NCBI GenBank assembly: GCA_029258795.1 | Contig: JAPDKB010000002.1 | Location: forward strand, 114,822 to 178,821 | Length of the DNA stretch: 64,000 nucleotides | Reading direction: 5' to 3' | From: an archaeon | GTDB taxonomy: Archaea; EX4484-52; WAPT01 | Shown here: positions 9,192-61,952 of the stretch, piece after piece | Position numbering within the stretch: position 1 is the first letter of the stretch | How the letters are laid out: every line of letters starts with the position of its first letter | Notes under the pieces: model-generated | Seen by the model: only the letters and a program-made list of their open reading frames with translations | Databases searched by the model: none | Told to the model about the DNA's origin: nothing | Translations under genes and position numbers: made by a program

Positions 9192-9351
9192 GGTCCCGTA
9201 GCTCAGCTGGTTGGAGCGCCGGTCTTATATGACCGCGGGAGCTAAAAATAACGGCTGTTGCTCCCGTGTCTAGGCCAGCCGGAGGTCGGGGGTTCGAAAG
9301 CCATCTAGAGAAACTGGAAAGAGAATATGGCAGAAAATCCCCCCGGGACCA
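9192..9351 (+). tRNA. tRNA-Ile (anticodon UAU) with two introns: 9230-9276 (37/38) and 9299-9337 (T-loop 59/60)
   Basis: Acceptor GGTCCCG/CGGGACC, D-arm TAGCTCAGCTGGTTGGAGC, anticodon stem CCGGT/GCCGG with loop CTTATA^A, T-stem GGGGG/CCCCC with loop TTCGAA^T. Both insertions fold as BHB motifs. Confidence 0.88.
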
Positions 9352-61752: not shown

Positions 61753-61952
61753 TGGTGCCGAGGGGGGGATTTCCTGCCACCAGAGCAGGAAGCGCGACGA
61801 AGCTTTGCTTCGGCGGCGTTCGAACCCCCGACCTCCAGATTTCTCAGCGCCGTAACACAAAATCATCGCTTGCTCATTACTCGGCAAACTCATCACTCAT
61901 AAGCCAACACGGCTTATGAGTCTGGCGCTCTAACCAGCTGAGCTACCTCGGC
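61753..61952 (-). tRNA. tRNA-Met (CAU, elongator-type) with encoded CCA and two introns: 61914-61841 (37/38) and 61818-61770 (T-loop 59/60)
   Basis: Acceptor GCCGAGG/CCTCGGC + ACCA, D-arm AGCTCAGCTGGTTAGAGC, anticodon stem CCAGA/TCTGG loop CTCATA^A, T-stem GGGGG/CCCCC loop TTCGAA^T. Confidence 0.9.
61841..61914 (-). ncRNA. Putative box C/D guide RNA inside the tRNA-Met intron
   Basis: AGCCGTGTTGGCTTATGA-GTGATGA(C)-GTTTGCCGAGTA-ATGA(D' degenerate)-GCAA-GCGATGA(C')-TTTTGTGTTACGGCG-CTGA(D)-GAA. Confidence 0.68.

Follow-up and report, generated by a model that had tools for sequence, protein, structure and literature searches.

The window considered here, a stretch of 64,000 nucleotides of archaeal DNA, contains two tRNA genes whose T-loops are both interrupted at site 59/60. 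A preliminary description, made from the sequence alone, took the nearly identical 3′ ends of the two inserts as a sign of one intron family and inferred that this family had proliferated genome-wide. This raises the question of whether one intron has been copied from tRNA gene to tRNA gene, or whether the ends are alike only through the pairing required for splicing. Our reading is that the inserts are archaeal BHB introns at 59/60, and that one family of them has very probably multiplied in recent time across the tRNA genes of a Nanohaloarchaeota-like DPANN archaeon. Excision in vivo is inferred.

The two tRNA genes of the window

The tRNA-Ile(UAU) gene (9192–9350, forward strand) has acceptor, D, anticodon and T stems and carries two introns; its anticodon was obtained from ARAGORN with the T-loop insert removed. 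Intron 1 is at the anticodon-loop position (9231–9277, forward strand; ARAGORN i(40,47), ends approximate). The 59/60 intron is 39 nt in length (9299–9337, forward strand) and lies in a T-arm that, together with the intron, spans 9288–9343 on the same strand and is scored as a family member by covariance model R1 (48.0 bits, E 1.1e-8). The tRNA-Met(CAU) gene (61757–61952, reverse strand) is of the elongator type and also has two introns, both on the reverse strand. Its intron 1, at the anticodon-loop position (61841–61914; ARAGORN i(39,74), ends approximate), is found as well in two genomes of the same genus, G001 and G002. Its 59/60 intron is 49 nt in length (61770–61818), and the T-arm with intron (61764–61829, reverse strand) scores 52.7 bits (E 7.3e-10). 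It should be pointed out that both T-arm sequences were included in model R1.

No tRNA is detected in the window by unaided ARAGORN or by Rfam at gathering thresholds. Removal of the inserts gives TTCGAA^T T-loops on a GGGGG/CCCCC stem, and both tRNAs are then recognised by ARAGORN. The insert coordinates (9299–9337 and 61818–61770), the site and the BHB fold given in the preliminary description all held, as did a central helix of three pairs plus a G.A on the GGGGG/CCCCC T-stem; in both tRNAs three of the four central pairs form beside a G57.A mismatch, and the inner helices are 5 bp (Ile) and 7 bp (Met).

G001 and G002 each have a related intron at 59/60 of tRNA-Ile, which is therefore older than the split of the three congeners. 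Its core has no significant relative among other tRNA genes, and it stands outside the main subfamily described below. The Met 59/60 intron is missing in G001 and G002, where the site is an empty TTCGAAT; it belongs to the main subfamily, and its best core partner is the Cys intron. The possibility that the Ile and Met introns are copies of each other was ruled out, as their cores are unrelated when the BHB-constrained ends are removed (P = 0.71). Their common 3′ end is thus not evidence of copying but reflects BHB pairing, and for this pair the argument from near-identical ends to one intron family failed.

Introns at 59/60 in the genome

The draft genome consists of 1,168,407 bases in 23 contigs and is 96% complete; its DNA ligase is closest to those of DPANN and Nanohaloarchaeota MAGs. 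The whole genome was searched for combinations of acceptor, A-box and T-arm with an insert at 59/60 allowed. This yielded 46 tRNA genes, 30 of which have a 59/60 intron of 24–52 nt. Not counted are three false hits and the four tRNAs of contig C11. Genes with a second intron were mis-called or missed by ARAGORN, so the anticodons of Ala(GGC), Leu(GAG), Val(CAC) and several Arg genes were read by eye from their stems and loops. With the 59/60 insert removed, ARAGORN recognises 44 of the 46 genes, and the remaining two also have a D-loop intron.

The inference of genome-wide proliferation therefore held, with at least 13 of the introns having cores common to different genes. One part of what would have refuted it, the absence of such introns from all other tRNAs, is not the case. 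The reason behind it was partly wrong, since the two window introns are not mutual copies and the one in tRNA-Ile was already there before the three congeners diverged.

Contig C11 (9.3 kb) has four tightly packed, intronless, bacterial-looking tRNA genes (G000:C11:169-495) and is probably a contamination of the bin.

BHB structure

The introns have a common layout. The outer helix is the T-stem of the host tRNA, the TTCR of the exon pairs with four bases near the intron 3′ end, and the bulges are AA^N and AA^T. All four central-helix pairs form in 27 of the 30 introns and at least three in every one. An inner helix of three or more contiguous base pairs is found in 24, and the other six have fewer than three in strict register. 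At least three central and at least three inner pairs together are seen in 0.9% of shuffled inserts. The central-helix G.A mismatch is the exception, found in Ile, Met and Gly(CCC). The preliminary description had taken an AGRA strand with G.A as typical; this is corrected, as it holds for only three of 30 members, and the consensus YGAA pairs fully with TTCA or TTCG.

In alignment A1, the named structure pairs in 89.8% of cells versus 37–56% for slid controls, with T-stem pairs in 100% and the central helix in 97% of cells. Changes on both sides are found at 11 of the 16 pairs. Covariation in the T-stem is a property of the tRNA itself, and the independent part is the inner helix. A comparison of exon base 57 with its intron partner shows an intron C only with G57 (5/5; Fisher P 0.045), which is suggestive. 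The introns do not meet the criterion for group I or group II introns: at 24–52 nt they are too short for a protein, and the genome has no RVT_1. The common site and the BHB pairing are regarded as shown.

One family or several

Short sequences align easily, and clustering at a 60% identity cut-off therefore put all introns into one group; a test of intron cores was used instead. Since the 3′ ends are constrained by pairing, the first five and last eleven bases were trimmed, and the cores were compared with shuffles. For thirteen introns the core is significantly similar to that of an intron in a different tRNA gene (P<0.005, the lowest value the test can give). The Leu(CAA) and Leu(CAG) introns are identical over 47 nt, those of Val(GAC) and Ala(CGC) show 96% identity over 45 nt, and those of Ala(GGC) and Thr(GGT) make up another pair, apart from these. 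The presence of copies in unrelated tRNAs is shown by these data. About half of the 30 introns have no recognisable core relative; some of these might be independent, or might have diverged too far.

A covariance model, as suggested in the preliminary description, was built (R1) and gave no further convincing sites. Neither this T-arm model nor an intron-only profile found copies outside tRNA T-loops in this genome. The profile, made from the eleven main members, returned those eleven sites and nothing else significant. The main copied subfamily is dedicated to the T-loop.

Filled and empty sites in relatives

The two congeners have fewer 59/60 introns, nine in 37 tRNAs of G001 and ten in 38 tRNAs of G002. 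The congener tallies as output included three false hits, and G001 and G002 were read around their tRNAs. Eight genes have the intron in all three congeners and 15 have it only in this genome. Sixteen genes that carry the intron here have an empty site in all congeners sampled; Pro(CGG) carries it here, and the sole congener in which that gene was found has the site empty. The existence of empty congener sites is shown. An outgroup, G010, is empty at nine of 15 genes (Arg TCG, Trp, Leu GAG, Leu TAG, Cys, Leu CAA, Ser TGA, Val GAC and Gln TTG). A search of 100 genomes with model R1 gave 27 matches here, 6–7 in the congeners and 0–6 elsewhere, with the proviso that the model was trained on this genome.

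Two sites differ between G001 and G002. At Ala(GGC) it is G001 that has the intron and G002 that has the empty site, and both flanks are orthologous. At Glu(CTC) G002 has the intron and G001 the empty site, and the downstream flank is not alignable.

At the Glu(CTC) locus (L203 near 5811 in G001, L190 near 6020 in G002) the upstream flank aligns between these close congeners and the downstream flank does not, and the break may represent a rearrangement or an element boundary at the tRNA 3′ end.

Movement of the introns

The Val(GAC)/Ala(CGC) pair is the clearest. The exons of the two genes differ at the base that abuts the intron (T versus A) and again downstream after three identical bases, and each agrees with its empty ortholog at 24 of 24 bases compared. 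As the exons are unlike each other at the border and like their empty orthologs, the tract that moved is the intron, give or take three bases; that its ends are at the splice sites is shown for this pair. The borders fit movement that is exact to the splice site, most simply by reverse splicing, and long gene conversion does not fit. The abutting exon base differs also in the Leu/Val, Glu/Val and Gly(CCC)/Cys pairs (0 identical nt upstream), where the introns are less similar. The tract common to Leu(CAA) and Leu(CAG) consists of the intron, 31 nt upstream and 13 nt downstream, and is consistent with gene conversion. Exon change is not in excess in genes that gained an intron (six differences in 17 genes versus seven in 14 controls, all seven in one diverged Gly copy).

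The Leu(CAG) gene of this genome (G000:C5:31269-31400) differs in its variable arm and T-arm from those of the congeners (L209:5718-5852, L187:5701-5835). These arms match other Leu genes, which points to gene conversion among Leu tRNA genes.

We infer that spread has been mainly splice-site-precise. By the simplest route, an excised intron would reverse-splice into another tRNA, and cDNA synthesis followed by recombination would place it in the gene of the recipient tRNA. Gene conversion between similar tRNA genes may add some cases, such as Leu(CAA)/Leu(CAG). One intron could be spliced in almost any tRNA because TTCRAA is near-universal and the 3′ end YGAA AA^T pairs with TTCR on any T-stem. 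Removal would presumably be by the single splicing endonuclease of the genome, with exons joined by RtcB. No reverse transcriptase of the RVT_1 family (PF00078) was found in the 96%-complete genome, and the cDNA step is therefore unsupported, with no identified enzyme.

Four genes, Gln(TTG), Glu(CTC), Pro(CGG) and Thr(GGT), have an encoded CCA here that is absent in the empty orthologs, and all four are intron-gaining. Where orthologs have no CCA, it is present here in 4/4 intron-gaining genes versus 1/5 without gain. Val(GAC) is a counterexample, having gained the intron and lost the CCA. As the footprint of an RNA intermediate the CCA is a hint only, given the small numbers and a post hoc test.

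Viral contigs were searched with a 15-base family pattern. A T-arm with the family 3′ end was found in none of the 80 stretches looked at among 92 that match, and the matches were therefore treated as chance. A search of viral contigs for the endonuclease found no relative.

The splicing endonuclease

The genome has one PF01974 endonuclease gene (L115:1216-1806, on G000:C6) and one RtcB gene. No second endonuclease subunit was found in this genome at E values up to 1, and nearly every relative examined within the order also has one PF01974 gene. The protein is ~197 aa in length and, among single-domain enzymes, is closest in sequence and fold to that of M. jannaschii (1a79; model pLDDT 86). 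It is of a single-gene alpha4-like type. Two residues of the triad, Tyr126 and His143, are invariant in 20 members of the order. The third position, that of the catalytic Lys, which we take to be K156 in the M. jannaschii enzyme, is an invariant Ala174 in 20 members.

Compared with the M. jannaschii enzyme, this one has a short insertion where the specificity loop of A. pernix lies (YFGKWIEEEKVK vs YYGQPLDVEKPR), and Lys45, within the insertion, is invariant in the order. Cleavage is reported to depend on a Lys of the CSL and ASL loops (PMC12397907, PMC6379350), and by analogy Lys45 might have the role of the CSL/ASL Lys. This is a hypothesis. The preliminary description held that a broad-specificity enzyme is required, which is not confirmed; there is one single-gene alpha4-like endonuclease, and most of the introns have near-canonical BHBs. 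A bolder reading, which can be entertained but no more, is that of a T-loop-dedicated intron family that travels as RNA from one splice site to another, by reverse splicing of excised introns into mature tRNAs and recombination of the cDNA into the gene, and is served by a single-gene endonuclease without the canonical Lys, perhaps one that uses the insertion Lys at the CSL/ASL position.

Alternative explanations

Convergence would mean that each T-loop intron arose independently and that the ends are alike only via BHB pairing with TTCR and the T-stem. In its favour, the 3′ end YGAAAA^T is dictated by TTCR pairing, the Ile and Met cores are unrelated, about half of the introns are without a core relative, and unrelated T-loop introns with similar 3′ ends are found in other families of the order. 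However, 13 introns keep significant core similarity across tRNA genes after the ends are removed, and the Leu CAA/CAG identity and the 96% Val/Ala identity extend over 47 and 45 nt, respectively. Convergence is thus unlikely as a general account and is refuted as the sole explanation, but it is a likely one for some of the divergent introns. Gene conversion, i.e. DNA-level spread between tRNA genes with near-identical T-arms as homology, remains possible. The common flanks of Leu(CAA) and Leu(CAG) speak for it, as do the variable and T arms of Leu(CAG), which are unlike those of its orthologs; the mismatch between exons right at the intron border in the pairs Val/Ala, Leu/Val, Glu/Val and Gly(CCC)/Cys speaks against it, as does the lack of excess exon change in gained genes.

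Intron loss would require that the congeners deleted introns precisely, e.g. by recombination with spliced tRNA cDNA, with no gain here. At a single locus precise loss cannot be distinguished from gain, and two genomes do not settle which way G001 and G002 came to differ at Ala(GGC) and Glu(CTC). But G010 is without the intron in nine of 15 genes, near-identical introns across isotypes require copying, and Leu(CAA) is empty in both congeners, yet in this genome it has an intron identical to the Leu(CAG) one. We consider loss very unlikely. Lastly, the inserts might not be introns at all but signs of decayed tRNA genes or an assembly artefact, given that standard tools detect no tRNA in the window and that the genome is a draft of 23 contigs. 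This is all but excluded, as exons around most inserts match intronless orthologs exactly, the inserts are on many contigs and invariably at 59/60, and for most isotypes the only copy found is affected. Recent multiplication of a BHB intron family remains the preferred reading.

Comparison with known systems

Large-scale transposition of tRNA introns is known from Thermoproteales (Fujishima 2010, as described in PMC4090602, PMC4033280). The likeness is in similar introns in diverse tRNAs, rapid gain, BHBs outside the anticodon loop and an unknown mechanism. However, Thermoproteales are Crenarchaeota, whereas this genome is DPANN and Nanohaloarchaeota-like; their copies are at canonical and non-canonical positions, those recognisable here at 59/60 only; their endonuclease is (alpha-beta)2, here single-gene alpha4-like; and empty sites in congeners are shown here. 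Atabeyarchaeia and Freyarchaeia have introns in 92–95% of tRNA genes, often non-canonical and many multiple (PMC11291895), but these are Asgard archaea, and copying from tRNA to tRNA and a single preferred site are not described in the bearing sections of that work. ARMAN-2, another small member of DPANN, likewise has introns in unusual places; its epsilon2 endonuclease is built of three units and has a specificity loop (Y160, K161) and the catalytic triad Y236/H251/K282 (PMC12397907, PMC6379350), whereas the enzyme here has ~197 aa and Ala at the Lys position. In Caldiarchaeum populations, gain of a tRNA-Thr intron is tied to an integrating mobile element (PMC3293823); there too intron presence varies among close genomes, but the short intron here is placed precisely and no element is seen.

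The open-access literature searched holds no report of tRNA intron spread in Nanohaloarchaea or DPANN generally. The kind of process is known from Thermoproteales, and what is new is the lineage, the single-site specificity, the empty sites and a single-gene endonuclease without the catalytic Lys. It can be looked at as a recent burst of tRNA introns, still under way, in a lineage other than the one from which such bursts are known. The way in which archaea gain tRNA introns has yet to be settled. With three congeneric genomes the same genes can be compared with and without the intron, at two sites even within the closest pair, and the comparison lets the limits of the tract that moved, the direction of gain and the donor be read directly. 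In addition, the burst occurs with a single-gene alpha4-like enzyme, whereas intron-rich tRNA sets have so far been linked to (alpha-beta)2 or epsilon2 types. DPANN tRNA sets are perhaps under-annotated, because such tRNAs escape ARAGORN and Rfam at default thresholds.

A second set of introns

A second set of introns is found in the D-loops of Arg(TCT) (G000:C5:23289-23410), Arg(CCT) (C3:79312-79432), Arg(TCG) (C1:64112-64272) and Val(CAC) (C2:52503-52623). The D-loop site is empty in Arg(TCT) of G002 and in Val(CAC) of both G001 and G002. The D-loop introns of Arg(TCT) and Arg(CCT) resemble each other.
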